The translations under genes were made by a program, and so were the position numbers. From the NCBI GenBank assembly GCA_020630715.1, contig JAHDIQ010000001.1, positions 124,001 through 188,000 on the forward strand: 64,000 nucleotides of DNA, read 5' to 3'. The notes under the pieces were generated by a model. That model ran no database searches. It worked only from the letters and a program-made list of their open reading frames with translations, and was not told the origin of the DNA. The DNA comes from Nonlabens sp. GTDB taxonomy: Bacteria; Bacteroidota; Bacteroidia; Flavobacteriales; Flavobacteriaceae. Positions 1 to 63,588 of the stretch are shown here, one piece after another; the first letter of the stretch is position 1; every line of letters starts with the position of its first letter.

Positions 1-3000
1 CTAACGGTGGAATATCTTCTAATTGATCAAATTGTTGGGAATTACGAGTCCAATTAAAATTAGCGGTGTATGTGTAGCTCGCTTTCGCGAAAGCGAAATA
101 AGGAAATTTATCTAGTGGTAGATTATAGGTTGCCTGTAACTGCTGGTTATAATTATTAGGAATCCCTTCATTAAAAAAGTCAGACCATATTCCAAAGTTA
201 TCTTGTATCGAATTATCCTCATTGATGTAACTGCGTACAAGACGATCATTATTTGCCGAAAGATTTACATTGAATGAACTGGTAAGATCCCAATTCACTG
301 CATAGGCATGATTTAAGGTGAAATTGCGATTTGTTAATGGATCAAGTGTGATATTTTGAGCATCTGGAACACCGTCACCATCAGTATCTACAGGATTTGT
401 ATCCAGCTGTAGATCCCTAAAAGTTTGAGTATTAAATTGTCTTATCACATTTGCATTTGCGGTAAAATTGTTAGGCAATAGATTTAGATTAAAGTCTTTA
501 ATAAATTTCACGTATTTATTAGAACCTAGTAGTTTATCAAATGGCTTCACCTCCGCTTTAGGGAATGCGTAATTATAAACAGCACCTACATTTACGGACT
601 GATCTTTAAATTCTTCTATCTCAAAATTGCGTTGATCGGTCTGATTATAAGAACCAGAAAGAGTGAAATTTTCAATATCATAAGGCATAGGTTTTGCGTC
701 ACCGGTTCGTTCCTTACGTACTCCTATTAAATTCACACTTTGCCTTCTCGTATAGTCTTCTGATTGTTCTCTAATGATATCACGCTCTGCTGCAGAAGCG
801 GCGTTGTCTAGTCTAGTTTGTAATTCAATATCCTCAAATTGAGGATCAAATTGTGGTGTTATGGTTTCTTCACCTATAGAATAAGAGAAAGGTAAATTAA
901 CACCCCATTTTTCTGGTAATAATTGTCCTAAATTCAAATTTGTGGTTACATCATATTGGGTAACATTCTCTCTAGAACGTTCATTAGGGCCTTGCTCAAT
1001 GGCACCAAAACCTATGGTACTGCGTCTACCAGTTGCACTAATGTTAGCAAAATCTGCAAGATTAGCATCCATATTCACCACGGCAGCATAGCCACCTTGA
1101 TTTTGTAAACCTGCAAGTCGTAATTCATTGAACCATACTTCTCCACAAACATCATTAGTACTACCATTACGCACACCGATCATCATGGCACGTATATCAC
1201 CAAAATTAGGATTACCTTTTATCCCATAAATATGTTCTCCTATGGTTCCAGGACCTGTAAACTGGATAGGTCTACCATCTGCATCCAGTTGTTCTTGAAA
1301 AAAGTTGACGTCTCCTGGGTTTAATCCAGGACTTCCTAATACAGCAGCCTTAATTTTTTGAAGTATAGACAGGTCAACTTCAAAGTTATTCTCGTCAGGC
1401 CATATCAAATCTGGATCACTAACCGCCGTTGTAGGATTGATCTCTGTTAGTTTTAACGGAAGACGTATTTCATAATAATTATCTGTGTAGTCAACACCCA
1501 TTCTTATGAAGGCCTCTAATTCTCCATCTGCGGCATTTCCACCACGTAAAAGTTCCTCTGCATGGACAAACATTTTTAAGGATTCATATTGTCGCATGTC
1601 AATGCGTAAATTTTTAAAAACCGCACGTCCATCTTCTGGTGCTAGATCACAAACTCTTAATGCAAGTGATTGTTCATTCTGACGGATATTCTGATTTTGA
1701 GTACGCAATTCTTCTCTTATCACTCCTGGTGGCAATACATAATTAACTGGTGAGCGAGCTTCGTTATTCTGAATATTTACACCTTCTACATCAAATGAGG
1801 TCGTTGAGTTACTGGTTACAGTAGGATCTAAAGCTAATTCATAACGTCTGTAATCTCCTCTTACTAATTCTAAAGAACCTAAACGCAATAGTGTTTCCTG
1901 ACTAAAATCTGTTAGATACATTCTCATGAATCTAATCGCTCTAAAATCTGCAATACCACCTATTTCTTCACGATTAGGATCTGATAAAGGAATTCTAAAT
2001 TGTACCCATCGAGTATTTATGGTAGAACCGTTAGGTAAATCTACTGGAGCTACTTTAGTGTCAAACACGTAGTCACTAGACAACTGTCCCATATCATTTG
2101 TAATAGGAATGTTGTACTGGTAGTAACTGTCTATGGTATTCATGGTATTATCGCGATTGATATCCTCAACATCTGGTAAGGTAGTAGAACCACGATTATC
2201 TTGGGTTACCTCAACTGGCGAGTTACCTTGAGTATTATTGTACCTGCGATATCTGGTTACAATATCTCCACTAGCCTGCAAAAAATATTCATAATTATCA
2301 TTTGCTGGATCAGGACCAAAGGCAGGAAAACGATTTTGCTCTTCTGTATCGCTTAATCCATCTAGACCTATATCCTGATTAGTACGCTCCTGACCAGCCG
2401 TGTCAAAGGCATAAATTAGTGATTGATTTGCTGGGACTTTACCATACGCAGTTTCTATCGTGTTTGATCCTAAACCAAAACTACCATCATTAGGCAATCC
2501 ATTTTCAAACTGTTTACGATTATCTTTAAGGATATCCTCACTAATACTACCTAAGTTGATGGATATCGTACCACCAGTATTTGTAGGATCGTACTGAAAC
2601 GGATCCATCATCCAGAATTGCACATACTCTACATTAGTCTGTTCAAAATCTGTTGCACTAAACTGTCGCATGATTCCAGCCCAATTATCTTCTGGATTAG
2701 GAAGTACATCTGTTCCTGCAGCTACTGGATTGTAGTTATATGGTCCACGTTGATCTGGATTATAATGCAGGTCTAAGGTATTTACGACTTGTTGTTGTCC
2801 TTGTTGTAGATCTACATTAGGGAATAACTCGTCTACAAACACTCTACGGGTTCTGGGATCTGAAACGTCGTCATCTGAAATCGCGGCAGGTCTTTGATTA
2901 CCATAAAAAATAGGATCAATGGTATACCACGACATCCGTGCTCTAGAAAAGTTATACGCTAATCGATTTGTTGTAGACCCGTTGCCTTCAAAATCAACAG

Positions 3001-5656
3001 GAACACTTGCTAGTGTCCATGCAAATGGAGACAATATATCAATACTAGTTTGTGATCCCTCAAAATCATCTACATAAGCTGCAGCTTCACCTTGAAAATC
3101 ATCACCACGAGGTGATCCTGGAAAGAGATAAGCCATTTCACCTCTTAGAGAAAAGTTAGAGGTCACATCTGTATCTATATTGGGCAATTTATTTACTAAT
3201 CTAGTAAGAAATGGAGCTTCGGTATTATAAATTAAATTAGCTCCTAGAATGGTATTATTAATAGGTTCAAAACCTAAAGTAGATTTTTGGGTAATAGGTC
3301 GTTCATTAAGATTCAAAAAGGTACCACCTACAATAAAGTCTTCGCTAAAGGTGTGCTCCACATTAATTCCTGTAAATCGTTTTGTTTGTTGATTAAAAAC
3401 AGAATTGTTTTCTGTAGAAACCTGTATAGGTGTATTAGAATTCAATAAGGCTTGATCCTGAATAAAAACACGTCCTAATTGATAATCTACCGTATAATCT
3501 AATCCTTCTTGTAGTGTTCTTCCTCCTGCACTAACAGTTACAGATCCACGAGGCACGTTAAAACTACCTATAGGAATACCTTCCTGTCCAGTAGCTTTAT
3601 ACTGTCCTTTAATTAAGTATTTATTTTTATCCTGACTTTGTAATGCTTGTGCTTTTGTAGTACGATACATATCCCTATAAACGTACTTTTCTTGATTTGC
3701 ATTATAAGTGGTAGGGTCATTATAATTCTCAGGTCCAGCACCTGGAGTTGGGTCTAATTCATCAAAAAGATGTTCTCCAAAAGGCTCTGTAGTGGTAAAA
3801 ATAATCCTACCGTTCTCAGGATCAATGGTTAAACCTGGTATGAAATCAAAAAACCCATCACCATCTGGCTGTGGATCACCTTGCTGGTTTAGGCGGTCTA
3901 AATTAAAAACTCTAATTAAGGTAGTTTGATCTACATCTGGCGGTAACGGTAATGCAGTGGGGTTTTGCAGTGTTGGTTCAGCAGGTGTGATATAGTTCAA
4001 CTCTGGTGGAAATTGATAAAAAATATTTAATCTAAAGTCTTCTTGTGACAATTGAAAACCACCTAAATTGTAAACATTTTTCATCATTAAATCCCAAATA
4101 GGCTCACTTACGTTTGTAAGATTGCTCTTCAGTAACTTTACTACTAGACTTTGGTTACTTACCGGTGGCTGTGTAGGGTTAGTATTAGGAATAACATCTG
4201 TTGCAACAACGCCATCATTTGCAAATTCACCTACTTGATACACTCTACCATTCACCGTATATTGAAATGCAACAGCTAGTACCTCATCGTTATTTAATCG
4301 CTGTCTTAAGGAGATATATCCTAACTCTGTATTTAAGGTGTACTCACTAGGTGTTAATTTTCTAGCATTCTCCAGTGTAACGTAGTCAAATCCTTCATTC
4401 ACTTGTGCACTGCCAAAACCTTGTTGCGCTGTTGCAATATCTCTTATCTGACTATTTAATATGGTCTGACTTCCAGAACTAATACCTAATGGGTTAAAAT
4501 CATTGTTACTATTTGAAGGAAAAGCATCTGCTGGTGCATTAATAAAACCAGAAGGAACTACATCGATTCCTATATTAGTTAAATCAGATTCTCCTATATC
4601 CTGAATAGCTACCAGGTTACGTACGTCTTGAGTCCGGTTACCGCGATTTGTGATCCATACCTCTGCACGAGTGATTTGTACATTAGTATTTATAAATGGA
4701 TAATTTTCTAACGTACGATCGTAGTTATCTCTAAAGTAATGTGCTAGAAAGAAATGCCTGTTTTCATCATAATCTAATGAGAAAAAGTCAAAATCGTTAA
4801 TCGTTGCGCCACCTTCTGCTTGAACCGTTCTGGCCTCTGATTGCTGTTCTGAAAAAACACCTGTAATACGCGTTTTACCAAATTGTAATTGTGTTTTAAT
4901 ACCAAAAAGACTCTGCGCACCACGAATCAATGTAGAATTTAAAGGCATCGCTACATTACCTACTTCTATGCTTTGTAGAATATCATCCTCTGTAGGTGTA
5001 TAATCTAACTTAATCTGGTTCTGGAAGTTAAAGGTACTTTGTGTATCATAATTTGCATTAACTGCTAGTCGAGTTCCTACGTTACCTACTAGACTTAGAT
5101 TGATACGCTGGTTAAAGTCAAAAGTTAAATTCTGTCTATTACGTGGTGAAAAAGCTGGATTATCAGACCGATTAAACAACAAACCTAAATCCACCTCTAC
5201 AGATCCTTGTGGCACGACAGAGATTTCTGTCCCACCAAAAATACTCTCAAACAGATCTGAATCCACGTAAAAGTTAGGAAGTAGATTTTTTTGTTTTTTC
5301 TTGTCTGCTTCTGTTTTACCTGCAATTGCCGCAGCTTTATCTCTAAAATACTGGGTCATTTGCTCCTTTGTCACAAGTGCTAAATAGTCTTCACGCGTTA
5401 ACATAAAAGGATATCCTATATCAAAACCATTAAACTTTTTCTGATAGATGTATCGATCCAGTTTTGGGTCATATTTATAAAGTGTCGTTATACTTGGTGG
5501 ATCTGGTAAATCGATCTTTCCGATTCTGACTTGGGTAGAAGTTGAATCAGACGCAGTAGATTGTGGTGGTTGCGCTTTCGCGAAAGCGAAAACAAAAAGA
5601 CAGCATACTAAGAAAAAATACGATCGTATTTTATGGAAATTATTGCTATTATTCAA
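1..5656 (-). CDS. sprA: SprA, T9SS outer-membrane translocon / gliding motility protein (partial, C-terminus beyond window)
   Basis: About 1,884 codons are visible and the frame stays open to base 1, so the C-terminal part lies outside the window. SprA forms the very large outer-membrane channel through which type IX secretion cargo leaves the cell, and is needed for gliding in Flavobacterium. The translation shows the family's long beta-barrel sequence, with segments such as FNGFDIGYPFMLTREDY near the N-terminus and GEVWFNELRLAG further on. No ATG gives a secretory N-terminus; the best start is a TTG at 5654-5656, giving MNNSNNFHKIRSYFFLVCCL, then VFAFAKA and Q, a good signal peptide cut after AKA. 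It begins 3 bases after the ruvA stop codon, so the two are co-transcribed. Two copies of the 16-base palindrome lie inside it (80-95 and 5573-5588), both read as AFAKA. The family call is firm; the TTG start is an inference. Confidence 0.93.
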   Translation of the reverse strand, partial: MNNSNNFHKIRSYFFLVCCLFVFAFAKAQPPQSTASDSTSTQVRIGKIDLPDPPSITTLYKYDPKLDRYIYQKKFNGFDIGYPFMLTREDYLALVTKEQMTQYFRDKAAAIAGKTEADKKKQKNLLPNFYVDSDLFESIFGGTEISVVPQGSVEVDLGLLFNRSDNPAFSPRNRQNLTFDFNQRINLSLVGNVGTRLAVNANYDTQSTFNFQNQIKLDYTPTEDDILQSIEVGNVAMPLNSTLIRGAQSLFGIKTQLQFGKTRITGVFSEQQSEARTVQAEGGATINDFDFFSLDYDENRHFFLAHYFRDNYDRTLENYPFINTNVQITRAEVWITNRGNRTQDVRNLVAIQDIGESDLTNIGIDVVPSGFINAPADAFPSNSNNDFNPLGISSGSQTILNSQIRDIATAQQGFGSAQVNEGFDYVTLENARKLTPSEYTLNTELGYISLRQRLNNDEVLAVAFQYTVNGRVYQVGEFANDGVVATDVIPNTNPTQPPVSNQSLVVKLLKSNLTNVSEPIWDLMMKNVYNLGGFQLSQEDFRLNIFYQFPPELNYITPAEPTLQNPTALPLPPDVDQTTLIRVFNLDRLNQQGDPQPDGDGFFDFIPGLTIDPENGRIIFTTTEPFGEHLFDELDPTPGAGPENYNDPTTYNANQEKYVYRDMYRTTKAQALQSQDKNKYLIKGQYKATGQEGIPIGSFNVPRGSVTVSAGGRTLQEGLDYTVDYQLGRVFIQDQALLNSNTPIQVSTENNSVFNQQTKRFTGINVEHTFSEDFIVGGTFLNLNERPITQKSTLGFEPINNTILGANLIYNTEAPFLTRLVNKLPNIDTDVTSNFSLRGEMAYLFPGSPRGDDFQGEAAAYVDDFEGSQTSIDILSPFAWTLASVPVDFEGNGSTTNRLAYNFSRARMSWYTIDPIFYGNQRPAAISDDDVSDPRTRRVFVDELFPNVDLQQGQQQVVNTLDLHYNPDQRGPYNYNPVAAGTDVLPNPEDNWAGIMRQFSATDFEQTNVEYVQFWMMDPFQYDPTNTGGTISINLGSISEDILKDNRKQFENGLPNDGSFGLGSNTIETAYGKVPANQSLIYAFDTAGQERTNQDIGLDGLSDTEEQNRFPAFGPDPANDNYEYFLQASGDIVTRYRRYNNTQGNSPVEVTQDNRGSTTLPDVEDINRDNTMNTIDSYYQYNIPITNDMGQLSSDYVFDTKVAPVDLPNGSTINTRWVQFRIPLSDPNREEIGGIADFRAIRFMRMYLTDFSQETLLRLGSLELVRGDYRRYELALDPTVTSNSTTSFDVEGVNIQNNEARSPVNYVLPPGVIREELRTQNQNIRQNEQSLALRVCDLAPEDGRAVFKNLRIDMRQYESLKMFVHAEELLRGGNAADGELEAFIRMGVDYTDNYYEIRLPLKLTEINPTTAVSDPDLIWPDENNFEVDLSILQKIKAAVLGSPGLNPGDVNFFQEQLDADGRPIQFTGPGTIGEHIYGIKGNPNFGDIRAMMIGVRNGSTNDVCGEVWFNELRLAGLQNQGGYAAVVNMDANLADFANISATGRRSTIGFGAIEQGPNERSRENVTQYDVTTNLNLGQLLPEKWGVNLPFSYSIGEETITPQFDPQFEDIELQTRLDNAASAAERDIIREQSEDYTRRQSVNLIGVRKERTGDAKPMPYDIENFTLSGSYNQTDQRNFEIEEFKDQSVNVGAVYNYAFPKAEVKPFDKLLGSNKYVKFIKDFNLNLLPNNFTANANVIRQFNTQTFRDLQLDTNPVDTDGDGVPDAQNITLDPLTNRNFTLNHAYAVNWDLTSSFNVNLSANNDRLVRSYINEDNSIQDNFGIWSDFFNEGIPNNYNQQLQATYNLPLDKFPYFAFAKASYTYTANFNWTRNSQQFDQLEDIPPL
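80..95. repeat. 16-base palindrome copy 1 (exact, in sprA)
   Basis: Exact CGCTTTCGCGAAAGCG. It is read in sprA as AFAKA, in the context YFAFAKASYTY within a barrel segment. Confidence 0.9.
5573..5588. repeat. 16-base palindrome copy 2 (exact, sprA signal peptide)
   Basis: Exact copy. It is read as AFAKA at the end of the SprA signal peptide, directly before Q, forming the likely signal peptidase I site. Confidence 0.9.
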
Positions 5657-5659
5657 ATC

Positions 5660-6241
5660 CTATAACTGTTTAAGCGCGTCTTTAATTAATTGTTCTACAG
5701 TGGCTTCTGGCGATAAGGCGAGGATTTTATCCACGACATTTTGCGCCTGCTTGCGTGCGTAGCCTAGCGTTTCTAGTGCTGATAACGCTTCATCACGTCC
5801 TGTATTGCTCATAGAAGGAGAAATTTCACTCACATCCATCACCTGCATGATTTTATCCTTAAGATCTAGGATCACACGTTGCGCTCCTTTTGCACCTATT
5901 CCCTTTACACTTTGCACCGTACGTGCATCACCACTAGCAATAGCTTGTGCAATTTGAGACGGATTAAGACTGGATAACATGGTGCGTGCCGTGTTTGCTC
6001 CTATACCAGAAACAGACAATAATAGCTTAAACAATTCACGCTCTGACTTTTCTACAAAACCAAACAATCGCTGTGAATCTTCTCTAACCAGCATATAAGT
6101 ATATAGTTTGATCAATTCACTATCAGAAATTTGGGAATAAGTATGAAGTGAAATTTCAACTAAATATCCTACACCAGCGCAGTCTATGACTACATCAGTA
6201 AGGTTTTTTTCTACAAGTTTTCCAGTAAGTTGCGCTATCAT
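5660..6241 (-). CDS. ruvA: Holliday junction branch migration protein RuvA
   Basis: 193 residues, the usual RuvA length. RuvA binds the four-way Holliday junction as a tetramer and loads the RuvB motor for branch migration in recombination repair. The N-terminal OB fold starts MIAQLTGKLVEK; the middle holds two helix-hairpin-helix motifs (LLSVSGIGANTARTML and VQSVKGIGAKGAQRVI, about residues 73-125); the C-terminal domain III (about 148-193) contacts RuvB. The ATG start is well placed after a TAnnTTTG box. sprA follows 3 bases after its stop. ruvB lies about 4 kb upstream on the same strand, separated by the malic enzyme and P450 genes, so the two ruv genes are not in one compact operon. Confidence 0.97.
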   Translation of the reverse strand: MIAQLTGKLVEKNLTDVVIDCAGVGYLVEISLHTYSQISDSELIKLYTYMLVREDSQRLFGFVEKSERELFKLLLSVSGIGANTARTMLSSLNPSQIAQAIASGDARTVQSVKGIGAKGAQRVILDLKDKIMQVMDVSEISPSMSNTGRDEALSALETLGYARKQAQNVVDKILALSPEATVEQLIKDALKQL

Positions 6242-6264
6242 TACTTAATAAAACGTTAACAGGC

Positions 6265-6272
6265 CAAATGTA
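6265..6272 (-). promoter_or_regulatory. Possible -7 box of the ruvA-sprA unit
   Basis: On the minus strand TACATTTG matches the Bacteroidota -7 consensus TAnnTTTG, about 25 bases before the ruvA ATG. No clear TTG box at -33, so only modest confidence. Confidence 0.4.
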
Positions 6273-6301
6273 AGAAAATAAAGAGCATTGAAAGAAAAGA
6301 A

Positions 6302-8614: not shown

Positions 8615-8641
8615 AAATAACTGTGGTTATTTTATTGCAAA

Positions 8642-8649: not shown

Positions 8650-8698
8650 AGTGACTATTGTTTACATGCGGTTTTAAGGATGCAGTAAATGTGGATTT

Positions 8699-8714
8699 CG
8701 CTTTCGCGAAAGCG
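8699..8714. repeat. 16-base palindrome copy 3 (exact, intergenic)
   Basis: Exact copy in the gap between the P450 stop codon and the maeB promoter. No T-tract follows on either strand, so it does not look like an intrinsic terminator. Confidence 0.9.
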
Positions 8715-11173: not shown

Positions 11174-11189
11174 CGCTTTCGCGAAAGCG
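11174..11189. repeat. 16-base palindrome copy 4 (exact, upstream of ruvB)
   Basis: Exact copy in the leader of ruvB, about 75 bases before the preferred ATG. If the longer frame were used it would read LSRKR. Confidence 0.9.
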
Positions 11190-13095: not shown

Positions 13096-13100
13096 ATATC

Positions 13101-15594: not shown

Positions 15595-16299
15595 TTACTC
15601 GCCGTCTGTTGATGAATGATTTTCTTGATCATGACTTTCACCATCATGTGTGTCCATCATATCTTGTGATACTTCTTCTACTTCTACCACTTCAGTAACT
15701 TTCTCAAATGCTCTAGGTTCTTCACCTTTCAATTCTTTGGTTAACTTGTCTACGTGGTGCGCTATTTGCCATCTTTCTTCGATTGAGGTTTGTGATGCAT
15801 AAGACCCCATATAGTTAATTCCCCAGTACATTACGTGATAAATAGATCCTTGAGAAATTTCTCGGTCTGCATATGATGGAACACCTAAGATTTTCTCTGT
15901 TTTCACAAGATGACCTTGTCCGTTACCATTTTTACCGTGACAAATACCGCAGTAAATATTATATAACTCTGCTCCTGTAGCTAGGTTTTCCTCTGTATAT
16001 GGCAATGGATTTTTTAAGTTCGCTTTCGCGGAAGCGTAACCTTCATTACTATCTTCATACTCATAAGGCATCCATCCTCTATTCACCGTTCCTTCTACTG
16101 GTTTCTGAGCTTCAATGCCACCTTTAAATAAATCCTCTGGTGCCTCTTGATACGTTTCATAACCTACAGATTCATACATATTAGGAAAATACTGTACGCT
16201 CCTACTTGATTTTTCATTTACCGTACCATCATTTCCTCCACAAGAGATAATGAGTAGCGCAGCTGTCGCGTAAATGAATGTGTTTACATATCTATTCAT
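15595..16299 (-). CDS. actE: Alternative complex III subunit ActE, mono-haem cytochrome c lipoprotein
   Basis: 234 residues. The N-terminus is a lipoprotein signal (ATAALLIISCGGN) with the cysteine at about residue 20, placing it on the membrane surface. One CxxCH motif (YCGICHGKNGNGQGH, about residues 116-130) binds a single haem c, and YMGSYASQ carries a candidate axial methionine. ActE is the likely exit point for electrons to the oxidase. A slightly altered copy of the palindromic repeat is inside the gene and is read as ASAKA. The C-terminal tail after about residue 200 is acidic and histidine-rich. The ATG overlaps the actD stop by one base (TAATG), indicating translational coupling. 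Confidence 0.94.
   Translation of the reverse strand: MNRYVNTFIYATAALLIISCGGNDGTVNEKSSRSVQYFPNMYESVGYETYQEAPEDLFKGGIEAQKPVEGTVNRGWMPYEYEDSNEGYASAKANLKNPLPYTEENLATGAELYNIYCGICHGKNGNGQGHLVKTEKILGVPSYADREISQGSIYHVMYWGINYMGSYASQTSIEERWQIAHHVDKLTKELKGEEPRAFEKVTEVVEVEEVSQDMMDTHDGESHDQENHSSTDGE
16021..16036. repeat. 16-base palindrome copy 5 (one mismatch, in actE)
   Basis: CGCTTTCGCGGAAGCG, one base off the consensus. It is read in actE as ASAKA instead of AFAKA. Confidence 0.8.
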
Positions 16300-18287: not shown

Positions 18288-21200
18288 TTATATGTTTGTA
18301 ACTTTAACCTGATACATCACATTAGGTTCAGTTCCTACTTCCTCTAATAGATGATACATACGATCACTGTTTTTCTTCTTATAGATTTCAGAGCTCTTAT
18401 CATTGATATCTCCAAATGTGATAGCACCACTTGAACAAGCATTTGAACATGCCGTAGCAAATTCACCATCCTTAATCATGCGACCATCTTTCTTAGCCTC
18501 TAAAATGGTCATTTGTGTCATTTGAATACACATAGAACATTTCTCCATTACACCACGTGAACGCACCGTAACATCTGGATTAATCACCATACGACCTAAA
18601 TCATTATTCATGTGGTAATCAAATTCGTCATTCCCGTTATATAAGAACCAGTTGAATCTACGTACTTTATAAGGACAGTTGTTTGCACAGTAACGGGTAC
18701 CTACACAACGGTTATAAGCCATGTGGTTTTGTCCCTGGCGACCATGTGAACTTGCTGCTACTGGACATACAGTTTCACAAGGTGCGTGATTACAGTGCTG
18801 ACACATTACTGGCTGGAATGCTACTTGTGGATTATCTGCTGGGTTTTCTAACTCACCAAATCCTCCTAGAGATCCATTATCACCAAATAATCCGTCAAAA
18901 TTATCTTTCTTATTCTCATCAGCTTCAAAACTATCTGTAGAAGAATAATATCTATCAATACGTAACCAGTGCATATCGCGAGATTTTCTAATCTCCTCTT
19001 TTCCTACAACTGGAACGTTATTTTCTGCATGACATGCTACTACACAAGCACCACAACCGGTACAAGCATTTAAGTCAATAGACATGTTGAAATGATGTCC
19101 TATAGAACGGTCAAAACTTTCCCATAAATCGACATCAGGTGATGTTACAGGAGTTTCAATGTGATTTAAAGATACGTGCGGTACTGGATTCCATTCTTCT
19201 TTTGAAGAAGTCATCATCGTAGCAAGATCAGTCTCACGAATAATATCGCGACCCATCATCGTATTTTGTAACTGTGTACAAGCAAATTCATGAGTGCCTG
19301 TAACATTACTTAAAGAAGCATTCTGAACTGAAACACCATTCTTATAGAAAGGATAAACATTTACTCCAGTTTGCATTTCTGCTTGTATCGCCGCTGTCTT
19401 ACCATAACCTAAAGCAATACCTAAGGTACCTTTAGCTTGTCCTGGCTGGATCAACGCTGGTAATTGCATTGTTTTACCATTTACAGTAACGTCTACATAA
19501 TTTCCATTTAATCCACCATCTGCTACATTTTCATTCTCAACTCCTTGAGCATCTGCATCTGCTTGTGAAATGGTTACATAGTTGTCCCATGTAGTTCTAG
19601 TAATAGGATCTGGAAGCTCTTGTAACCATGGGTTATTAGCTTGTGTACCATCACCTAAACCAGTTTTAGTATATAAAGTCAACTCAAAATCGCCAGCCTT
19701 TTTAGCACTAGCAAGACTATTTAACGCTTGTGAAGCAGACATTACAGCTACAGTTTCTACATCATCAGAAGAACTAGCTTCTGTTGCAGTAGCTTTAAAG
19801 AATCCATCTTGTAATGACTGTGCCCAGCTAGAAGCGCCAGAAGCCATACTTGATTCTTTTAAAAAGTCTTTATATGAAGTCGTATTACCTGACCACATCA
19901 ATAGCGTATCTTGCATTTGACGTGTGTCAAATAACGGCTGTATGGTAGGTTGCATTAAGGAAACTAATCCCTTTTTAATTTCTACATCACCCCAAGATTC
20001 TAAATAGTGAGGAGTGGTTGCCACATAATCACATTTCTGTGCTGTTGCGGTCTCTGATGATGCAAAAGCTACTTTTAGAGCTACTTTAGATAACGCTTTC
20101 GCGAAAGCGTCACTATTATCATAACTGTAAACAGGATCAACACCTGCAATAAAAACAGCTCCTACAGATCCGGAATTCATGTCCTTAACTAACTGGTCAA
20201 CAGCCTTACGACTTCCCTGACGCGTCATGATAGGAGCATCTGTATCTATAATCGTACTAGCAAGCTTAGCATTAATTTCTAAAGTTAATTGCTGTGCTGC
20301 CTGATCGTCAATTCCACACACTAGCACTGCTTTACTTCCAGCTTTCACAAGCTCTTGCGCCGTTTGCTGTACCGCTTTCTTCACCTTATCAGACATCTTC
20401 ACATTAGCAGATCCACCTACAATGCTACTGTAAAGAGCAGCAATAATATGTTTCTGCTCTGTAGGCGTTACTGGATAACGTAAATCTGCATTTGCACCAG
20501 AAAGTGTCATATTAGACTCAAACTGTATGTGGTGAGACATTTTACCATTTTCTGGAACACGTGAATGTGCATAACCTTTATCAAAGCCACCACCTTGCCA
20601 GTTTCCTACAAAATCAGCGCCTACACCTACGATACATTCTGCATTTGTAAAATCGTAATCTGCAAGAGCACGTAAACCATACATTGCTTCAAAAGCATTT
20701 AATGCAGCATCTTCTCCTACGGTATCGTAAGTTACATGTCTTACGTTAGTATATTTTGCTTTGAATTCCTCTACAATTGCCGCCGTTGATGGACTTGCAA
20801 AAGTTTGAGTTAAAAGAACGATTTCTTTTCCACCTAAAGATTGAAGTTGCGCTGCAACCTCTTTATCTAAAGTTTCCCAGTTAGATTCTGCACCTTTTAC
20901 TAAAGGTGTTTTTAATCTATTGTTATCGTATAATGAAAGAACAGATGCATGCACACGTGCATTTGCATCACCACGATACATGGCATCGCGATTACTTTCT
21001 ATTTTGATAGGTCTTCCTTCACGAGTTTTAACCAGGATACTTGCAAAATCATAACCATCTGCAATTGTAGTTGCATAATAGTTTGCCATTCCAGGAATGA
21101 TTTGCTCTGGTTGATTTACATAAGGTACAGAATTAATTACAGGACCTTCACAGGCTGCAAGTGATGCTGCTGCTGTACTAAATCCTACATATTTAAGAAA

Positions 21201-22877: not shown

Positions 22878-22893
22878 CGCTTTCGCGAAAGCG
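22878..22893. repeat. 16-base palindrome copy 7 (exact, intergenic)
   Basis: Exact copy between the divergent actA and SPOR-protein genes, 22 bases before the latter's ATG. Confidence 0.9.
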
Positions 22894-37560: not shown

Positions 37561-40500
37561 ACTCTCTATTAAATTTACCATTATTGTTCTTCTATGCACC
37601 GCTTTCGCGAAAGCGCAAGTAGGAATAGGCACAAATGATCCTAAAGCAGCACTCGACATAAGAGCTACTGCAAATCCGGAAGAATCTGGAATATTGATAC
37701 CAAAATTATCAGATTTTCCTCCTGGAGTAACCGTAGATCAAGACGGAATGCTCATTTACATCGATGGATCTGGTGCTACTACTAAGGGTTTCTATTATTA
37801 TGAACATAATACCACAACATGGATTCCTATAGCTGGTGCCGCTGCTGCAGATAATCAGCAAATTGACGTCCTTAACCTCAACGGTACCAACTTAGAAATA
37901 TCACTGCAAGATGATGGTATTGCGACTCAAACTTTAGACCTGTCTCCTTTACAAGATGGCACAGGAACAGATAATCAAACCATAGATAATTTCAACTTTA
38001 ACTCTGGTACTGGTATTCTTACTTTAGAACTTGAGGATGATGGAGTTGCACCACAAACGGTAAATCTATCTTCTCTTGCAGGTTCTGGTGGAACAGATGA
38101 TCAACAAATCGATGTACTTAACCTAAATGGCACTAATCTAGAAATATCTTTAGAAGATGATGGCGTTGTTACACAAACATTAGACCTATCGCCAATGCAA
38201 GATGGAACAGGTACTGATAATCAAACCATAGACAATTTCAATCTCAACACTAGCACAGGGATACTTACTCTCGAAATCGAGGATGATGGCATTGCACCAC
38301 AAAATGTTGATATTTCTACGATAACTGGTTTTGGTGGAACAGACAATCAACAAATAGACGTTCTTAATCTTAATGGTACAGATCTGGAAATCTCTTTACA
38401 AGATGATGGAATTGCCATACAAACTCTGGATCTTTCATCATTGCAAGATGGAACTGGAACGGATAATCAAACTATAGACAACTTTAATTTTAATACTGGT
38501 ACTGGAATTCTTACCCTAGAATTAGAAGATGATGGACAAACTCCTCAAACAGTTAACTTAAATAGCTTAAGTGGTGATTCAGATTGGATTAGAATAGGAA
38601 CTACTTCTACTCCAGCAACCACTGTTGTTCAAAATATGTTTCATTCTGGTAACGTCAGTATAGGGTCAACTAATACAACCATAAACGGCAATAATAGTAA
38701 GTTATTAGTGAGCTCAAATGATGTTATTACATCAGGAATTCACAACTATGGTGCAGAAACTGCGCTAGCGATCAATTTAAGTGGTACAAGTAATTCCTCA
38801 GCTATTTCAGCTGCAATAGATATTAATAATAGTGCCTCAGGAACTCGCAATAAAGTAAATATTAATAATGAATTTACAGGTAGTGATGGTTCCATGACGG
38901 CGATGATTAACGATTTCAGTACCGGATCTGATTATACTATTGAAAACGGAATCATAAATAACTTAAATGGTAATTTGTTTGGATCAGGAGCTTCTAGTAC
39001 TGGAGAGAAAACAGGTGTTAGAAATAATATTATTGGTGTGCAAGATGGTGATAAAACTGGATTATATAATGTATTCGGATCATCAACTCCTGGAGCTGTA
39101 TTAACTAATGGTATTCTTTATGGCGTTAAAAATATATTCACGTCAAGAACTGGATCTTTTAATAAATATGGTTCCTATACTCAAATTGATCAAACTGCAA
39201 ATGGAACACATTACGGTACTTATAACGATGTGCAAAAAGCAAATAGTTATGCAGCTTATTTTATAGGTAGAACATCATTAGGTAATTCTACAACAAATAG
39301 ATATTTAATGCCTGCTAATGATGGGACGGTAGGACAAGTCATGACTACAGACGGCTCAGGAAATGTTTTTTTTCAAACACCTACAACCTTTACCGACACT
39401 GATAATCAACAAATAGACATCCTTAACCTCAACGGCACCAACTTAGAAATATCCTTACAAGATGATGGCATTGCAACACAAACACTTGATTTAAGTCCAT
39501 TGACTGGTGGTGGAACATTAGATCAAGCCTATGACTTTAGTGGTGCAGGAAATGGAAACACAATAATAGCCACAGATGGTGCGGTTACTATTGCTGGTGA
39601 AGATGGACTTCTAGTTTCAGGAACATTTGGTACAGGAGATGCTATTAATACTTCAGGAGCTGGAACACGCATGTTTTTTAATCCACGTAAAGCTGCATTC
39701 AGAGCAGGAAATGTAGGAGCAACACAATGGGATGATACAAATGTAGGCAGCTATTCTACCGCGTTTGGAAGTAGTTCGACGGCTAGCGGTAGTCAGTCAT
39801 TTGCTTTATCTGGTGGAACAGCCTCAGGAACACAATCTTTTGCGACGGGATTATTTGCTCAAGCATCAGGAAATGCTTCAGTGGCTTTTAGAGGTGGAAA
39901 CGCTAGTGGATTAGGATCATTTGCCATGGGAAGCTCCGCACAAGCAATTGGAAATTTTTCACATTCTTTTGGGATTAATACACGTGCTGAGCAAGATGTA
40001 TCTATCGCTATGGGATATGACGTAGTTGCTCCTTCTATTGGTGAAATGGCTGTAGGATTATATAATACAGATTATACTCCTAGTGCTTCATCAGGAGGTT
40101 TTTCGACTTCAGATCGTGTGTTTTCAGTAGGTAATGGATGGAATGGAGTAAGAAGTAATGCATTGTCCATCTATAAAAACGGCCGCATGAACATAAATGA
40201 TGAATATAATATGCCACTTACAGATGGAACAGCTGGTCAAGTAATGACTACTGATGGTGCCGGTAATGTGGTATTTCAAAATGTAGGTGGTAGTGCTGCA
40301 AATAATGGCCTCACCTTAACCGCAGGAGTAATCCGTCTAGGCGGCGCACTAACTCAAAACACAGTCATTACCCAAGCTACTAGAAGTCTAGACTTTAATC
40401 TCAATAGTACAGGAGATTTTGCCATACAGGATAATGGAACTGATGTATTTTTTGTAGAAGATAGTGGTGACATAGGAATAGGAACTTCAAACCCAGAACA

Positions 40501-41943: not shown

Positions 41944-41959
41944 CGCTTTCGCGAAAGCG
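41944..41959. repeat. 16-base palindrome copy 11 (exact, intergenic)
   Basis: Exact copy 14 bases after the fibre gene stop codon, before the terminator. Confidence 0.9.
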
Positions 41960-42141: not shown

Positions 42142-45003
42142 ATGACTAACGACGGAACGGACGATAAAAGATTATTTCTACTCGATGCTTATGCCTTAAT
42201 CTTTAGAGGTTATTATGCGCTTATAAAAAACCCTAGAATAAACAGTGCTGGAATGGACACCAGTGCGATTATGGGTTTTACAAATAGTCTTTTTGACGTG
42301 ATACGTCGTGAAAAACCTGAATACCTAGCCGTAGCTTTTGATAAAGGTGGTAGCCATGAGCGTGTAGAGCTTTATGAAGATTATAAAGCAAACCGTGATG
42401 AAACTCCTGAGGCTATAAAAATTGCGGTTCCGTATATACAGCGCATCTTAAAAGCCATGCATATTCCTATCGTAGTAGAAGAAGGTATTGAAGCAGATGA
42501 TTTAATAGGAACTCTTGCAAAGCAAGCCGAAAAAGAAGGTTTTACCACTTATATGGTAACGCCAGATAAAGATTATGCGCAACTCGTCTCTGAAAATATT
42601 TTTATGTACAAACCGGCGCGTATGGGAAATGGAATTGAGATCTGGGGAATTCCAGAGGTTCAAAAGCGATTTGAAGTAGAACGTCCAGAACAGGTGATCG
42701 ATTATCTAGGAATGATGGGTGATGCCAGTGATAATATACCTGGATTACCTGGTGTAGGTGATAAAACGGCCAAAAAATTCATAGCAGCTTACGGCTCTAT
42801 GGAAGGCCTTTTTGAGAACATCCACGAGCTTAAAGGTAAGATGAAAGAGAAAGTAGAAGCTAATCAGGAATTAGGCTTGCTTTCTAAACAACTGGCCACC
42901 ATAAAGCTGGATTGCCGAGTAACTTTTAATGCAAAAAACTACACACTAGACGATCCTGATGTAGAAGCAGTTCACGAGATTTTTGACGAGCTAGAATTCC
43001 GTAGGGCAAAAGAAACACTAGCTAAAATCTTTGCACCAGACGGTGTTCCAGGAGTGAATTATAAAAATGATGTCAGTTCGAGCGCAGTCGAGAACTCTAA
43101 CAAAAAAGCACCTAAAAACCCATCCGGACAATTCGATTTATTCAACGCACCAGGATCCGGAACCACAACAGAAACAACAAATTCTGGTCGTAAAAGCCTT
43201 GCAACTACAGATCATTTGTACCAGCTGGTGCAACCTGGAATGGGAACTAAACTGTTTTTACAGACTTTAATGAATCAGTCTAGCGTTTGTTTTGACACAG
43301 AAACTACCGGACTAGATCCGTTAACAGCGCAACTGGTAGGAATTGCTTTTTCATGGGAACAAGGAAAAGGATTTTATGTACCTATTCCAGAAGATCGCGA
43401 TGAAGCGCAGGCTATCGTAGATCAATTAAAACCGTTTTTTGAAAGCACCACCATTGAAAAAATAGGCCAAAACTTAAAATACGATCTTAAGGTCCTTCAC
43501 AAATATGGTGTCACCGCTCACGGACCGTTATTTGACACCATGCTGGCTCATTACCTCATCAATCCAGATATGCGCCACAACATGGACGTCCTGGCCGAAA
43601 CCTATCTGAATTACACACCACAACCCATTGTGGATTTAATAGGTAAGAAAGGTAAGAACCAGAAATCTATGCGCGATGTACCACTAGAAGATCAAAAAGA
43701 ATATGCGGTTGAAGATGCAGATATCACCTTGCAACTCAAAGAACATTTTGAAAAAGAACTCAAGCAAGCAGGAACAGACAAACTATTTTATGATATAGAA
43801 ATGCCACTATTACAGGTGTTAGTCGCGATGGAAATAGAAGGTGTTAATCTAGATAGTGAGTTTTTAAGCACGCTTTCGCGGAAGCTTAATGAAGACATCC
43901 TACAGCTAGAAAAAAGCATTTATGAAACCGCAGGTGAAGAATTCAATATAGGATCGCCCAAACAATTAGGAGAAATCCTTTTTGGTAAAATGCAACTGGT
44001 TGACAAGCCTAAAAAGACTAAAACGGGACAATATTCTACCGCAGAAGATGTGTTAAGTTACCTCGCAAAAGATCATCAAATCATTGCTGATGTGCTGGAA
44101 TATCGTGGTCTTACAAAATTGAAATCCACCTATGTAGATGCGTTACCTAATCAGGTGAATCCTGATACTGGTCGCATTCATACCAGTTATATGCAAGCAG
44201 TTGCTGCCACTGGCCGTTTAAGCTCTACAGATCCTAATTTACAGAATATCCCGATACGCACAGAGCGTGGACGACAAGTGCGTAAAGCATTTGTACCTAG
44301 AGATGAAAATTACACACTCGTCGCAGCAGATTATTCGCAAATAGAATTGCGTATCATCGCCGCATTAAGTGAAGAAGAAAACATGATTGCCGCATTCCAG
44401 AGCGGTGAAGACATTCACGCTTCTACTGCTGCAAAGGTTTTTAATGTCGCACTGGATGCAGTGACCAGAGAACAACGTAGTAATGCAAAAACGGTGAACT
44501 TTGGGATTATCTATGGAGTAAGTGCTTTTGGTTTAAGTAATCAGACCGATTTATCTCGTGGAGAAGCTAAAGAATTAATCGACACCTATTATGCTACCTA
44601 TCCTAAATTGAGAGCTTATATGCAAGACCAAGTGGATTTTGCTCGTGAAAATGGATATGTAGCAACTGTTTTAGGTAGACGTCGTTACTTAAATAACATC
44701 AACAGCTCTAACGCTATTGTACGCGGCGCAGCAGAACGTAATGCCGTTAACGCACCGATTCAAGGTAGCGCGGCAGATATTATCAAACTAGCGATGATCA
44801 ATATCCACAAGAAATTCCAAGAATTGAACTGCAAGTCTAAAATGTTGCTACAAGTACATGATGAACTCGTATTTGACATTCATAACGATGAATTAGACCA
44901 GATGAAAAAGCTTATTCAAGACGAAATGGAAAACGCTTATAAAATGACCGTGCCACTAGATGTGGAAGTAGGATTAGGGCAGAACTGGTTAGAGGCGCAT
45001 TAG
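42142..45003 (+). CDS. polA: DNA polymerase I
   Basis: 953 residues. Fills gaps in repair and removes RNA primers. Three domains are complete: the 5' nuclease (about 1-295; LLDAYALIFRGYYAL, VVEEGIEADDLIGTLA, TPDKDYAQLV, GDASDNIPGLPGVGDKTA), the 3'-5' exonuclease (about 370-560; CFDTETTGLDPL, NLKYDLKVL, YAVEDADITLQ, so proofreading residues are kept), and the polymerase (from about 560; DYSQIELR, RSNAKTVNFGIIYGVSAFGL, LQVHDELVFDI). One mismatched palindrome copy is read as LSRKL. The start MTNDGTDDKRLFLLDAYA is the first in frame. Its stop codon overlaps the GH16 gene's stop on the other strand by 4 bases. Confidence 0.97.
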   Translation: MTNDGTDDKRLFLLDAYALIFRGYYALIKNPRINSAGMDTSAIMGFTNSLFDVIRREKPEYLAVAFDKGGSHERVELYEDYKANRDETPEAIKIAVPYIQRILKAMHIPIVVEEGIEADDLIGTLAKQAEKEGFTTYMVTPDKDYAQLVSENIFMYKPARMGNGIEIWGIPEVQKRFEVERPEQVIDYLGMMGDASDNIPGLPGVGDKTAKKFIAAYGSMEGLFENIHELKGKMKEKVEANQELGLLSKQLATIKLDCRVTFNAKNYTLDDPDVEAVHEIFDELEFRRAKETLAKIFAPDGVPGVNYKNDVSSSAVENSNKKAPKNPSGQFDLFNAPGSGTTTETTNSGRKSLATTDHLYQLVQPGMGTKLFLQTLMNQSSVCFDTETTGLDPLTAQLVGIAFSWEQGKGFYVPIPEDRDEAQAIVDQLKPFFESTTIEKIGQNLKYDLKVLHKYGVTAHGPLFDTMLAHYLINPDMRHNMDVLAETYLNYTPQPIVDLIGKKGKNQKSMRDVPLEDQKEYAVEDADITLQLKEHFEKELKQAGTDKLFYDIEMPLLQVLVAMEIEGVNLDSEFLSTLSRKLNEDILQLEKSIYETAGEEFNIGSPKQLGEILFGKMQLVDKPKKTKTGQYSTAEDVLSYLAKDHQIIADVLEYRGLTKLKSTYVDALPNQVNPDTGRIHTSYMQAVAATGRLSSTDPNLQNIPIRTERGRQVRKAFVPRDENYTLVAADYSQIELRIIAALSEEENMIAAFQSGEDIHASTAAKVFNVALDAVTREQRSNAKTVNFGIIYGVSAFGLSNQTDLSRGEAKELIDTYYATYPKLRAYMQDQVDFARENGYVATVLGRRRYLNNINSSNAIVRGAAERNAVNAPIQGSAADIIKLAMINIHKKFQELNCKSKMLLQVHDELVFDIHNDELDQMKKLIQDEMENAYKMTVPLDVEVGLGQNWLEAH
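43871..43886. repeat. 16-base palindrome copy 12 (two mismatches, in polA)
   Basis: CGCTTTCGCGGAAGCT, read as LSRKL in STLSRKLNEDIL of the polymerase. Confidence 0.7.
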
Positions 45004-46670: not shown

Positions 46671-46686
46671 AGCTTTCGCGAAAGCG
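46671..46686. repeat. 16-base palindrome copy 13 (one mismatch at the end, intergenic)
   Basis: AGCTTTCGCGAAAGCG between the GH16 gene and the gliding-CTD gene, 15 bases from the latter's stop codon. Confidence 0.85.
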
Positions 46687-48791: not shown

Positions 48792-49854
48792 AATACAAAT
48801 CTAAACATTCCAACAGTCTATCGATGTCATTTGTGTTATTATAATGCGCACAACTTACTCGTATCCCACTACCTCTTAAAGAGGTAATAATTCCTTTAGA
48901 CCTTAAATGATCATATAATTCTTGATCTCCAGAAATATTGAAAATGTTAGAGTGTTCTCGATCTTCTAGCCATTTTGGGATCCATTCGCGTTCTAGTAAT
49001 TGGTTTTTTAAGTGAAAACTCAACTTTTTGATGTGATCGCCTATGGTTTGAATTCCTTGTGAGTCATGATTTTCAATCGCTCGTTGTAAAACTCCTGTGG
49101 TAACTAAATCGATGTGTCCAGGTTCAAATATTTGCTTTAAATCATCGGTCTTTTTAGTAATTTTATGTTGAAGTAACGTACTCATTTTTGGTTGTATTGC
49201 CATGACAGCACATCCATCGCCGGCATGCAACCATTTGTAACAACTTGCGATGATAATGTCTATGCCGCTTTCGCGAAAGCGGAATTCTTCAACACCTAGA
49301 TATTGAGTAGCATCTACCACGATACATAGATCTGGAAATTGTGATTTCAGTGTTTTAATAAAATCTGGATTCATTTTTACACCTGTGATGTATTGAACCA
49401 TACTAAAGCAAAAGTAATCTGGACGATTCTGAAGGCATTGTTCAATGATTTGTTGCTCAAAACCAGATTGAATAGATACTTTTTGATTTAAAAAACCGCG
49501 CTGTTCTATAGCGGTCGTAATGGACGGATAATCTTCATCCAGCACTAGAAAGGTACTTTCCTGAGGTAAAGCATCGAGAAAACTATTAAAACCAAAAGAG
49601 AAATTAGGTAAGAGAAAGGTATGTTGTGAATCTGCATGAAGAAACGAGGCTACTGTTTTTTTTACATCGGCTAGAAACTCATCTCGTTGCTCTATAAAAA
49701 AGCTGGTCTGATCATGTAATCGTAGTGATAATTCCTGCTGGTATGCGATTAATTCTTTTGAAAACATACCGTGATAGGCTGTGTTTAAATAGGTATAATT
49801 AGTTAAGACTGCGTACTGCTCACGTATTTTATGCATTTCTAAGGATTGATTCAC
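48784..49854 (-). CDS. PLP-dependent aminotransferase class V family protein
   Basis: 356 residues; a start at the internal MHKIREQYAVLTN (residue 7) is equally possible. The fold-type I pattern is present: TYLNTAYHG at the N-terminus, VVDATQYLGV (the Asp that pairs with the pyridine nitrogen), and the PLP-binding lysine in ASCYKWLHAGDGCAVM (about residue 210). Relatives are cysteine desulfurases, kynureninases and isopenicillin N epimerases; no CXXC or other landmark of a real cysteine desulfurase is seen, so the reaction stays open. One palindrome copy is read as RFRES. The downstream gene overlaps by 8 bases; the upstream side is divergent from the DHFR gene. Confidence 0.82.
   Translation of the reverse strand: MNQSLEMHKIREQYAVLTNYTYLNTAYHGMFSKELIAYQQELSLRLHDQTSFFIEQRDEFLADVKKTVASFLHADSQHTFLLPNFSFGFNSFLDALPQESTFLVLDEDYPSITTAIEQRGFLNQKVSIQSGFEQQIIEQCLQNRPDYFCFSMVQYITGVKMNPDFIKTLKSQFPDLCIVVDATQYLGVEEFRFRESGIDIIIASCYKWLHAGDGCAVMAIQPKMSTLLQHKITKKTDDLKQIFEPGHIDLVTTGVLQRAIENHDSQGIQTIGDHIKKLSFHLKNQLLEREWIPKWLEDREHSNIFNISGDQELYDHLRSKGIITSLRGSGIRVSCAHYNNTNDIDRLLECLDLYYA
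49266..49281. repeat. 16-base palindrome copy 14 (exact, in PLP enzyme gene)
   Basis: Exact copy, the only one read as RFRES (EEFRFRESGIDII), in the PLP enzyme shortly before the lysine. Confidence 0.9.
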
Positions 49855-55458: not shown

Positions 55459-55474
55459 CACTTTCACGAAAGCG
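55459..55474. repeat. 16-base palindrome copy 15 (two mismatches, intergenic)
   Basis: CACTTTCACGAAAGCG, a decayed copy with two G-to-A changes, in the 237-base gap before the LytTR gene. Nothing else is recognisable in that gap. Confidence 0.65.
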
Positions 55475-60834: not shown

Positions 60835-63588
60835 TTATTTGTTGGTATTAAAAACGTCTTCTATTATTCTTGCCTGTCTTCTTTTAGATCTTGTGGAACT
60901 ACCTGAAGCAGGTGCTGCATACATATTTCTAGAGCATACGCGCCAGTTTCTAGTTTCTGGCATGTGTAGTAATAAATGGGAATATGCTCCCATATTACGT
61001 GGTTCTTCTTGCGCCCACACGATATCTTTTGCATCGTAATTTTTAATCACGGCTTGTATCTGATCTATTGGTAATGGAAATAATTGCTCAATACGCACTA
61101 TGGCAACATCATTCCTATTATTTTGCTCACGATGTTCTAGTAAATCATAGTAGAATTTACCAGACGTGAAGACTAATGTTTTTGCTTTCGCGAAAGCGGA
61201 ATTCTCACCATCTACATCGATTACCTCTTGAAAATGTCCAGTTACCAGTTCATCAACGGTGCTTACCGCTTTAGGATAACGCAACAAAGATTTAGGTGTA
61301 AAAACAATCAGTGGTTTACGATAATTAACGAGCATCTGACGTCTCAATAGGTGAAACATATTTGCTGGCGTTGTACAGTTTGCCATAAACATATTATCAC
61401 GTGCGCACAGTTGCAGGTAACGTTCTATTCTTGCGCTAGAATGCTCGGCTCCTTGACCTTCATAACCATGAGGTAACAATTGTACTAAACCATTTTGGTT
61501 TTTCCATTTATCCTCACCAGCACTGATGTATTGATCCATCATAATTTGTGCACCATTTGAAAAATCTCCAAACTGTGCTTCCCAAATCGTCAAGGTATCT
61601 GGTCGTGCCATCGCATAACCGTATTCAAAACCTACCACACCATATTCAGAAAGGTGTGAATTATAGATTTCCATTTTTCCTTTTACGTCATCAATATGAT
61701 TGTGTAAAATAAATTCCTTCTCACTATTTTCTGACTTGATAACGGCATGACGGTGAGAGAATGTACCACGCTCTACGTCCTGACCACTCATGCGTACATT
61801 ATAACCATCCATCATTAAACTACCGTAAGCTAGGTGTTCACCCATTGCCCAGTCTAGTTTATCGCTGTCAAACATTTTACGGCGATCATTCACTAACTTC
61901 TTAATCTTTCTAAAAAAATTACGATCTTCTGGCAGTTGTGATATAGTGGCTGTGATTTTTTCTAAGGTTGCTCTAGAAACACCTGTTTTTACAGGTTGCA
62001 TCATTTCCTTTTCTGTTGCAGTTTCAAAACCATTCCACTCATCCTGCATGAATGGTGTAATCACGGTGTTTTCTTTTTCTCTAGAAGATGCTAATTGTTC
62101 TTCTAGCTCTTCTTTATAAGCTTTTTCTAGTTTGCTTACGGTATCCTTTTCTATAACACCTTGTTCCAGCAATTGCTGTGCGTAAATATCTCGAGGATTT
62201 TTATGCTTTCCTATCGCTTTATAAAGTTTAGGTTGTGTAAACTTAGGCTCATCACCTTCATTATGGCCGTATTTTCTGTAACCTAATAGATCTATAAATA
62301 CATCACGACCAAATTTCATGCGGTAATCCAGCGCAAATTTCATGGCGTGAACCACAGCTTCTGCATCATCTGCATTTACATGAAGTACTGGTGAAAGTGT
62401 GACTTTTGCAATATCAGTACAATAAGTACTAGATCTTGCATCTAGATAATTAGTCGTAAATCCTACCTGATTATTCACAACCATGTGAATCGTACCTGCC
62501 GTTTTATAGGCATCTAATTGTGCCATTTGCACAACCTCATAAACAATTCCCTGACCAGCAATTGCAGCATCACCATGTAACACAATAGGCAATACTTTAG
62601 AGAAATCTTCTGGATTATGCATGTCTTGTTTTGCACGAGTAATTCCTTCTACAACTGCACCTACCGTTTCTAGATGTGATGGATTAGGAACAATATTAAT
62701 ATTGATCTCCTTGCCACTATCTGTTTTACGCTTACTAGTATATCCTAAATGGTATTTTACATCACCATCAAAAATGTCTTGCTCGTAATCCTTACCGTCA
62801 AATTCAGAAAAGATATCTGTTACTGGCTTTCCAAAGATATTTGTCAAAACATTCAAACGACCACGGTGTGCCATTCCTAGCACAAACTGATTCACTCCTT
62901 TATTTGCAGCACCTTCAATTAACGCGTCTAATGCTGGAATTAAAGATTCATTTCCTTCTAGTGAGAAACGTTTCTGTCCTACGTATTTAGTATGAAGAAA
63001 TGATTCAAAGGAAACGGCTTCATTTAATTTTTTAAGAATTTGCTTTTTCTCATCGCCTGAAAAATCTGGCTGATTGTTATTATTATGCAACCAGTTTTGT
63101 ATCCATCGCACCTCTTCAGGTTTGCGCACATACATATATTCTACACCTATACTGGTGCAGTATACTTGTTTTAAATGATCTACTATGGATCTAAGTGTTG
63201 CTTTACCTAGTCCTACTATAGAACCACTATCAAAGGCTGTATCTAAATCACTATCTGATAAACCAAAGTTCTCTAGCGTTAATTTAGGCTCATAATTACG
63301 GCGATCTCTTACCGGATTAGTCTGAGTGAATAAATGTCCTCTCGTACGGTAACCGTCAATTAATTGTACAACTTTGAATTCTTTCTGGACGTTTTCTGGA
63401 ACTGATGTTGTAGTACCACTATGGTTTACAACTAGATCACCTTCATGGGCGCTTTCCATTCCAAAATCAAATCCTTGAAAAAAGGCACGCCATGATGGCT
63501 CTACCTTATCAGGATTGATTAAATAATCGTCATATAGTTGTGCAAAATATGCGGTATGAGCCGCGTTGAGAAATGAAAACTTGTCCAT
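60835..63588 (-). CDS. sucA: 2-oxoglutarate dehydrogenase E1 component
   Basis: 917 residues, family length. This thiamine diphosphate enzyme decarboxylates 2-oxoglutarate and loads succinyl onto the E2 lipoyl arm. Motifs visible: the N-terminal [50 protein letters not shown] and [12 protein letters not shown] for cofactor and substrate binding, and the C-terminal [24 protein letters not shown] copy of the palindrome is read as AFAKA ([12 protein letters not shown]). A -7 box candidate (TATTTTTG) lies at 63626-63633. It heads the sucA-sucB operon. Confidence 0.97.
61183..61198. repeat. 16-base palindrome copy 16 (one mismatch at the end, in sucA)
   Basis: TGCTTTCGCGAAAGCG, read as AFAKA in [12 protein letters not shown] of SucA. 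Confidence 0.85.

Follow-up and report, generated by a model that had tools for sequence, protein, structure and literature searches.

Evenly spaced DNA words that mark a whole genus are rare, and the known ones have led to uptake receptors, Chi enzymes and nucleoid proteins. For the uptake signal sequences (USS), two reports describe molecular drive and a spacing that is even, or relatively so; for USS and DNA uptake sequences (DUS) they also describe origin by substitution, an intergenic excess and gaps at islands (PMC1939737, PMC7811141). The highly iterated palindromes (HIPs) are described as words of 5-8 bp occurring about 1000-2000 times per Mb (PMC4390886). Natural transformation occurs among the Flavobacteriaceae: in R. 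columbina the best competitor is the species' own DNA, although a study of its k-mers of 10 or fewer letters brought out no clear uptake word (PMC7965970), and R. anatipestifer employs four uncharacterised proteins whose distribution is mainly within the family (PMC8459023). Here we describe a 16-bp palindrome, CGCTTTCGCGAAAGCG (hereafter the word), that an initial annotation had noticed in 64,000 nucleotides of a Nonlabens sp. genome (GCA_020630715.1, contig JAHDIQ010000001.1, positions 124,001 to 188,000; the window). We tentatively favour the reading, at somewhat less than an even chance, that the word forms the centre of a site of about 50 bp recognised by a dedicated dimeric factor, most likely in DNA uptake.

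RESULTS

Copy number and taxonomic range

The window (G+C 36.5%) holds 16 matches to the word at two mismatches or fewer: 11 exact, three with one mismatch and two with two. The initial annotation had placed all 16 starts correctly, and its description of the copies as exact was a slight overstatement, applying to 11 of them. None of 100 dinucleotide-preserving shuffles of the window gave any match at the same threshold, and the genome to which it belongs (2.98 Mb in 17 contigs) contains 448 exact copies, about 150 per Mb, against none of the reversed word. Chance origin is thus excluded, as had been argued, and the copies are neither at the expected frequency nor confined to the window.

Each of the 23 Nonlabens genomes, the window's own included, carries 180-737 exact copies. 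Outside the genus, only four of 76 genomes from the family and order contain the word, with 1-4 copies each. A count over 397 family genomes found it in 48: four Nonlabens, G266 (630), G250 (153) and 42 genomes with 1-13. The 14-mer core was found in all 18 genomes of the genus of G266 (369-905 copies), and the third word-bearing genus is represented by one genome, G250. In a phylum sample of 296 genomes the 14-mer core occurs in 16, the window's own with 609 copies and the other 15 with 1-4. A 12-mer core counted in 259 family genomes reached 445-917 in the same three genera, the next highest values being 19, 19, 13 and 11. One word is therefore over-represented in related taxa, as is expected of uptake sequences.

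No clearly comparable own word of another flavobacterial genus emerged among the top words of 15 of 20 stretches from 14 genera (the other five stretches being under 3 kb each) or at nine named loci. A dense repeat around ATATTAGATTGAAG, with 14 copies in 20 kb, was seen in L112 (G027:C1:1-20000), from another flavobacterial genus, and a short word stood among the top words of L111. The literature searched yielded no description of the 16-mer, and the 14-mer core was not shown among the matches listed; the check also covered Nonlabens with palindromes and TTTCGCGAAA with palindromes.

Spacing and chromosomal distribution

Four chosen stretches of the own genome, window included, total 464 kb and hold 110 sites (68 exact, 36 with one mismatch, six with two) at a mean spacing of 4.2 kb. 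The coefficient of variation (CV) of the gaps is 0.46, as opposed to 0.97 for random placement, and none of 5000 simulations was as even. Close pairs are avoided (two gaps below 1 kb versus 22 expected); over 644 kb the gaps peak at 2-6 kb and behave as a renewal process without a lattice. The sites thus show the relatively even spacing looked for in uptake sequences. In exact-only listings the CV is 0.46 in G004 and 0.77 in G016 (p 0.045), the weakest case, and in the second genus G485 has an exact-core CV of 0.74 versus 0.99 at random (p 0.0006). At two mismatches or fewer, G266 and G250 have mean gaps of 3.5 and 4.4 kb (CV 0.52 and 0.46), values based on only 32 and 18 gaps and shortened because the gaps were taken inside 20-kb stretches.

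On the complete chromosome of G019, 40 stretches covering 800 of 2916 kb contain 171 exact, 41 one-mismatch and six two-mismatch sites. Their density is uniform (variance/mean 0.53), with no gradient from origin (ori) to terminus (ter) in these stretches (first harmonic p 0.64), so that a role tied to ori or ter, which had been envisaged, gains no support. Uniform density and even spacing would also suit a genus-restricted nucleoid or chromosome-architecture protein needing an anchor every few kb, with selection keeping one site per roughly 4 kb, and we regard this rival as a serious possibility, though below an even chance. It would have to tolerate islands of 15 kb without sites. Nor does a genus-wide ParB/Noc-type paralogue, or any other identified candidate protein, stand behind it: 20 of the 23 Nonlabens genomes have one ParB_N match and second matches occur only in G014, G018 and G019, for which reason a ParB/Noc duplication was rejected as the reader.

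Thirty-five of the 110 sites lie outside mechanically called open reading frames (ORFs), which leave 9% of the sequence (p 2e-11), and only two of the 35 stand between convergent genes. Within ORFs the preferred reading is AFAKA (38 of 75). Ten gaps exceed 9 kb. The two longest, of about 15 kb, were read and presumably hold a surface-polysaccharide cluster and a defence-like island; both look acquired, yet some phage DNA carries words. A word gap in L077 (G019:C1:1015001-1035000), at 1-12000, likewise corresponds to a defence-like island, whose genes we take to encode a Dam-like methylase, ATPases and a GIY-YIG-like protein.

Conservation and origin of the sites

The window's sites were compared with five syntenic 70-kb regions (relatives G016, G002, G014, G020 and G022). 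The word itself has no strand; the strand of each ORF is in parentheses.

80..95, exact word, within ORF 2-5656 (-), which is open-ended; no alignment in any of the five relatives
5573..5588, exact word, near the 5' end of mechanical ORF 2-5656 (-); site also in G002, G020 and G022
8699..8714, exact word, between ORFs 6302-8614 and 8729-10072; site also in G016, G002 and G014
11174..11189, exact word, probably intergenic, lying upstream of where ORF 10069-11205 (-), presumably ruvB-like, is likely to begin; site also in G002
16021..16036, one mismatch, inside cytochrome c-type ORF 15595-16299 (-), presumably ActE of alternative complex III
20094..20109, exact word, inside the 1024-residue Fe-S ORF 18288-21362 (-), presumably ActB, in frame AFAKA
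22878..22893, exact word, intergenic; site in G016, G020, G022 and G014, absent in G002
30102..30117, exact word, inside TMEM260-like ORF 29270-32632 (+); site in G020 and G022, four mismatches in G016
34504..34519, exact word, inside metallophosphoesterase ORF 33585-34811 (-); aligned yet not conserved in G016, G020 and G022
37600..37615, exact word, in the N-terminal signal-peptide-like part (TAFAKA) of ORF 37556-41929 (+); unaligned in all five relatives
41944..41959, exact word, intergenic, just past ORF 37556-41929; unaligned in all five relatives
43871..43886, two mismatches, inside DNA polymerase I ORF 42142-45003 (+); one-mismatch site in the same position in G020 and G022, absent in G016
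46671..46686, one mismatch, intergenic; site in G016
49266..49281, exact word, inside class-V aminotransferase ORF 48784-49854 (-); site in G016, G020 and G022
55459..55474, two mismatches, intergenic; unaligned in all five relatives
61183..61198, one mismatch, inside ORF 60835-63588 (-), presumably 2-oxoglutarate dehydrogenase E1; site in G016, G020 and G022

The mechanical ORF 10069-11205 spans the word at 11174 at codon 6. Because the alignments with two relatives begin no earlier than codons 29 and 34, we count this site as intergenic, and with that proviso the earlier division into ten genic and six intergenic sites agrees with ours.

Across the syntenic regions, words keep two or fewer differences in 32 of 36 fully aligned cases, compared with 21-33% of random 16-mers, which provides the conservation at orthologous positions that the initial annotation had asked to be checked. 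Since six of the 16 sites align in one relative or none, this result describes the alignable part. Identity is 0.91 in the word versus 0.68-0.69 in the flanks, and the outermost word bases (0.64, 0.78) barely exceed flank identity.

Two genes were aligned with other genera. In ActB the word stands at the same codons in all 12 Nonlabens sequences (eight exact, four with one mismatch), and all 11 sequences from other genera align without a gap across the word and lack it; two of these rows (L021 and L028) have a three-residue gap just upstream of the word position. The site is also absent from G266 and G250, whose ActB proteins are 62-64% identical and fall outside the Nonlabens branch in one FastTree tree. 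In ActE a one- or two-mismatch word occupies the same codon in the window, nine Nonlabens loci, G266 and G250. As AKA is already encoded at this position in five of ten other-genus sequences, independent gain in ActE is possible. The ActE alignment, too, has no gap across the word. At these two loci the word arose by substitution, not by insertion.

These alignments bear directly on the idea that the copies are remnants of a short mobile element. In its favour, copies exist in unrelated genera: several word-poor genera carry them in small groups, within which certain distances recur (933 and 2446 bp, for example). The gap-free ActB and ActE alignments led us to reject a mobile element, in agreement with the initial annotation, and the foreign copies in the only such cluster whose genes were read (G138; L191, G138:C1:2820001-2840000, 6984-17737) lie inside genes, which we take to encode RND and TolC-type metal efflux and a copper ATPase. 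This block is likely DNA transferred from a word-bearing donor and a trace of that donor lineage, and remnants of a mobile element are hardly credible as an explanation. The 933-bp spacing of the G138 block recurs in G161, G147, G220 and G275. The words of G033 are confined to a block of about 100 kb (G033:C18:74148-174391) around a second ParB-like ORF, of 616 residues, which is shared with Nonlabens G014, G018 and G019; the block is probably a conjugative or plasmid-like element.

Half-sites and flanking arms

Among 469 Nonlabens sites with two mismatches or fewer, deviations per half-site are, from the outside to the centre, 10, 1.7, 0.4, 0.2, 0, 2.9, 2.1 and 0.6%. The strictest positions, 3-5, are thus far from the word centre. 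The initial annotation had reported that the copies share no flanks, which proved wrong: on each side runs an arm that is AT-rich, strand-asymmetric and C-poor for about 17-22 bp, its inward strand being G/T-rich. On the strand running into the word at intergenic sites, T reaches 85% at -2 and A 69% at -4; further T peaks in the arms lie at -6, -9 and -11/-12, and C stays at 6-9% out to about 17 bp versus 17% far away. The pattern holds for 284 genic and 160 intergenic sites, as assigned by mechanical ORFs, and is found in G266, more weakly in G250, and at 43 words in virus contigs. AT-rich segments near -1 to -4 and -9 to -12 are about one helical turn apart and resemble the flanks of USS.

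We read the arms and the word together as the two half-sites of a putative dimer, with a predicted footprint near 50 bp. Two independent half-sites and a long footprint with AT-rich arm segments would suit a nucleoid protein as well.

An RNA hairpin, be it a terminator or a regulatory stem, or a DNA cruciform would account for the perfect palindrome, and complementarity between mirror positions of the arms does exceed shuffles at position 1 (z 5.3). Positions 2-18 show no such excess (z between -2.3 and 1.4), and among the one-mismatch variants inside genes, a broken outer pair (CGC..GCA, 6) is commoner than a wobble pair (TGC..GCG, 2). The side following the stem is A-rich rather than T-rich, ten of the 16 window sites are genic and convergent sites are few; we therefore rejected a terminator or RNA hairpin, as the initial annotation had done for the terminator, and consider any such structure very improbable.

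Outside full sites, the half-words CGAAAGCG and CGCGAAAG occur 6 and 1 times in G000 (6.9 and 9.1 expected) and 9 and 7 times in G019 (13.8 and 15.3 expected), while GCGAAAGC is slightly above expectation in G019 (24 versus 19.7). One arm alone seems insufficient, because half-words are mostly at or below expectation. This speaks against a bidirectional self mark for DNA repair or defence that acts like Chi or stops nucleases, and a Chi-like half-word was rejected since the one-sided word is not consistently enriched by itself. The G/T-rich inward arms would fit such a mark, as would the density of one site per 4 kb or so, which is near that of Chi in E. coli; on balance we hold it to be unlikely.

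The sub-word TTCGCGAA is below expectation outside full sites (1 versus 5.9 and 4 versus 9.9), and TCGCGA exceeds it in G000 (80 versus 50) but not in G019 (78 versus 85), so that a HIP-like internal sub-word was rejected. In the HIP-type model the word would be made by a methyltransferase with linked mismatch repair. A highly iterated palindrome, with TCGCGA elevated in G000, would agree with this, as would the concentration of deviations at the outermost positions, which is reported for HIP1 (PMC4390886). A search restricted to C5 methyltransferases (PF00145) gave no match in three of ten word-bearing genomes (G016, G022 and G250), and a C5 link was rejected as not universal. With 16 bp and its strictest positions far from the centre, the word is also longer than usual methyltransferase sites. 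The comparison with HIP1 and methylation made by the initial annotation is thus unsupported as a mechanism, and we judge this origin quite improbable. Both the HIP model and a Chi-like role fit poorly.

Words in phage DNA

A scan of IMG/VR returned 41 stretches in 30 records, of which 23 hold at least two sites at two mismatches or fewer, with up to eight in 37 kb. Some high-GC single matches are probably due to chance, and several records appear closely related, judging from the distances they share. In the six records with listed sites, gaps are 0.8-10.9 kb; in three related records the majority measure 3-6 kb. Two annotated phage loci have between them a tape measure protein, a baseplate hub, a tail chaperone and an endolysin, and L034 has an integrase; words in a contig carrying an integrase would be compatible with a nucleoid protein too. 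A 211-residue gene, tail-chaperone-like in L066, has a word in or beside it in both L066 (7402-8037) and L034 (6860-7495), at different positions, suggesting separate gain in phages.

The cultured Nonlabens phages P12024S and P12024L (35.7 kb each) gave no match even at three mismatches, where about eight would be expected at host density. They have no integrase among their annotated genes, and we infer that they are strictly virulent. For a Chi-like mark, words in some phage DNA are favourable, and the fact that these two phages do without the word is not.

DISCUSSION

Our analyses point to a specific reader of the word. It is close to certain, judging from the word's strictness, symmetry and conservation, that a dedicated factor recognises it. 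The initial annotation's proposal of a protein-binding site is supported by the strict half-sites, the orthologous conservation and the even spacing, though not in an ori- or ter-linked form.

What that factor does is a matter of lesser confidence. In the model that we favour, Nonlabens and two other flavobacterial genera would encode a dimeric DNA-binding factor that reads the site of about 50 bp and that, by inference, would belong to a DNA-uptake or natural-transformation route. DNA bearing the word would enter and recombine preferentially, and molecular drive would create and keep words in chromosome-resident DNA, that is, in core genes and integrated prophages. About one word would be retained per imported fragment, and none would be driven in virulent phage. 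Uptake with drive would account for the even spacing, the origin by substitution, the intergenic excess, the gaps at islands, the words in integrase-bearing phage and their absence from P12024S and P12024L. That the word is a self-recognition word for uptake, with two C-poor arms and a putative dimeric receptor, placed every 4 kb in three genera and marking some phages, is quite possible, if on the doubtful side of even. If so, it would be, to our knowledge, the first uptake (self) word known in Bacteroidota.

Several points weigh against this model. No receptor or binding protein was found, and no whole-genome gene comparison was made. ComEC, present in all 13 word-bearing genomes tested, is also present in all seven word-poor ones; it therefore cannot explain the restriction to three genera and was rejected as a distinguishing gene (20 of 20 genomes). 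P12024S and P12024L are close relatives and in effect one lineage, and the words in phage DNA may just as well stem from a function inside the cell. Uptake words known so far lack palindromic symmetry (PMC1939737), and the density here is about a quarter of that of the H. influenzae USS, which are about 1 kb apart on average (PMC7811141). USS are also described as less evenly spaced than compaction sites should be (PMC1939737), so that the strong evenness seen here may favour the nucleoid protein, which fits nearly as well as an uptake word.

Either outcome would be of interest. If the word serves in uptake, it would be a candidate signal of the sort that underlies self-preference in Flavobacteriaceae transformation; otherwise a chromosome-organising protein not yet described would be indicated. 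As the word is long and strict, with a spacing rule common to three genera, its cognate protein should be readily isolated. The word may also serve as a donor-lineage tag in transferred islands and phages.

In its behaviour the word resembles both uptake words and architectural sites, and it is a candidate member of either family. HIP1 and the alternate HIPs of cyanobacteria are likewise iterated palindromes spread over genes and intergenic DNA, with deviations biased to the outer bases; those words are methyltransferase-tied, whereas the present one has 16 bp, a far lower exact density and no consistently enriched sub-word. Chi has a similar density but is short, asymmetric and oriented, whereas here the full palindrome is needed. 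The sites of Noc and SlmA, parS and matS are also strict palindromic dimer sites dispersed in genomes, but in far fewer copies than the present word, which shows no ori or ter bias and no genus-wide second ParB-like protein. With the USS and DUS of Pasteurellaceae and Neisseriaceae the word shares hundreds of near-identical copies, even spacing, a surplus between genes, spread through substitution, gaps where islands look acquired and restriction to particular taxa; it differs from them in its palindromic 16-bp core, its density of about one per 4 kb, its two symmetric arms and its occurrence in another phylum, where its role in uptake is putative.

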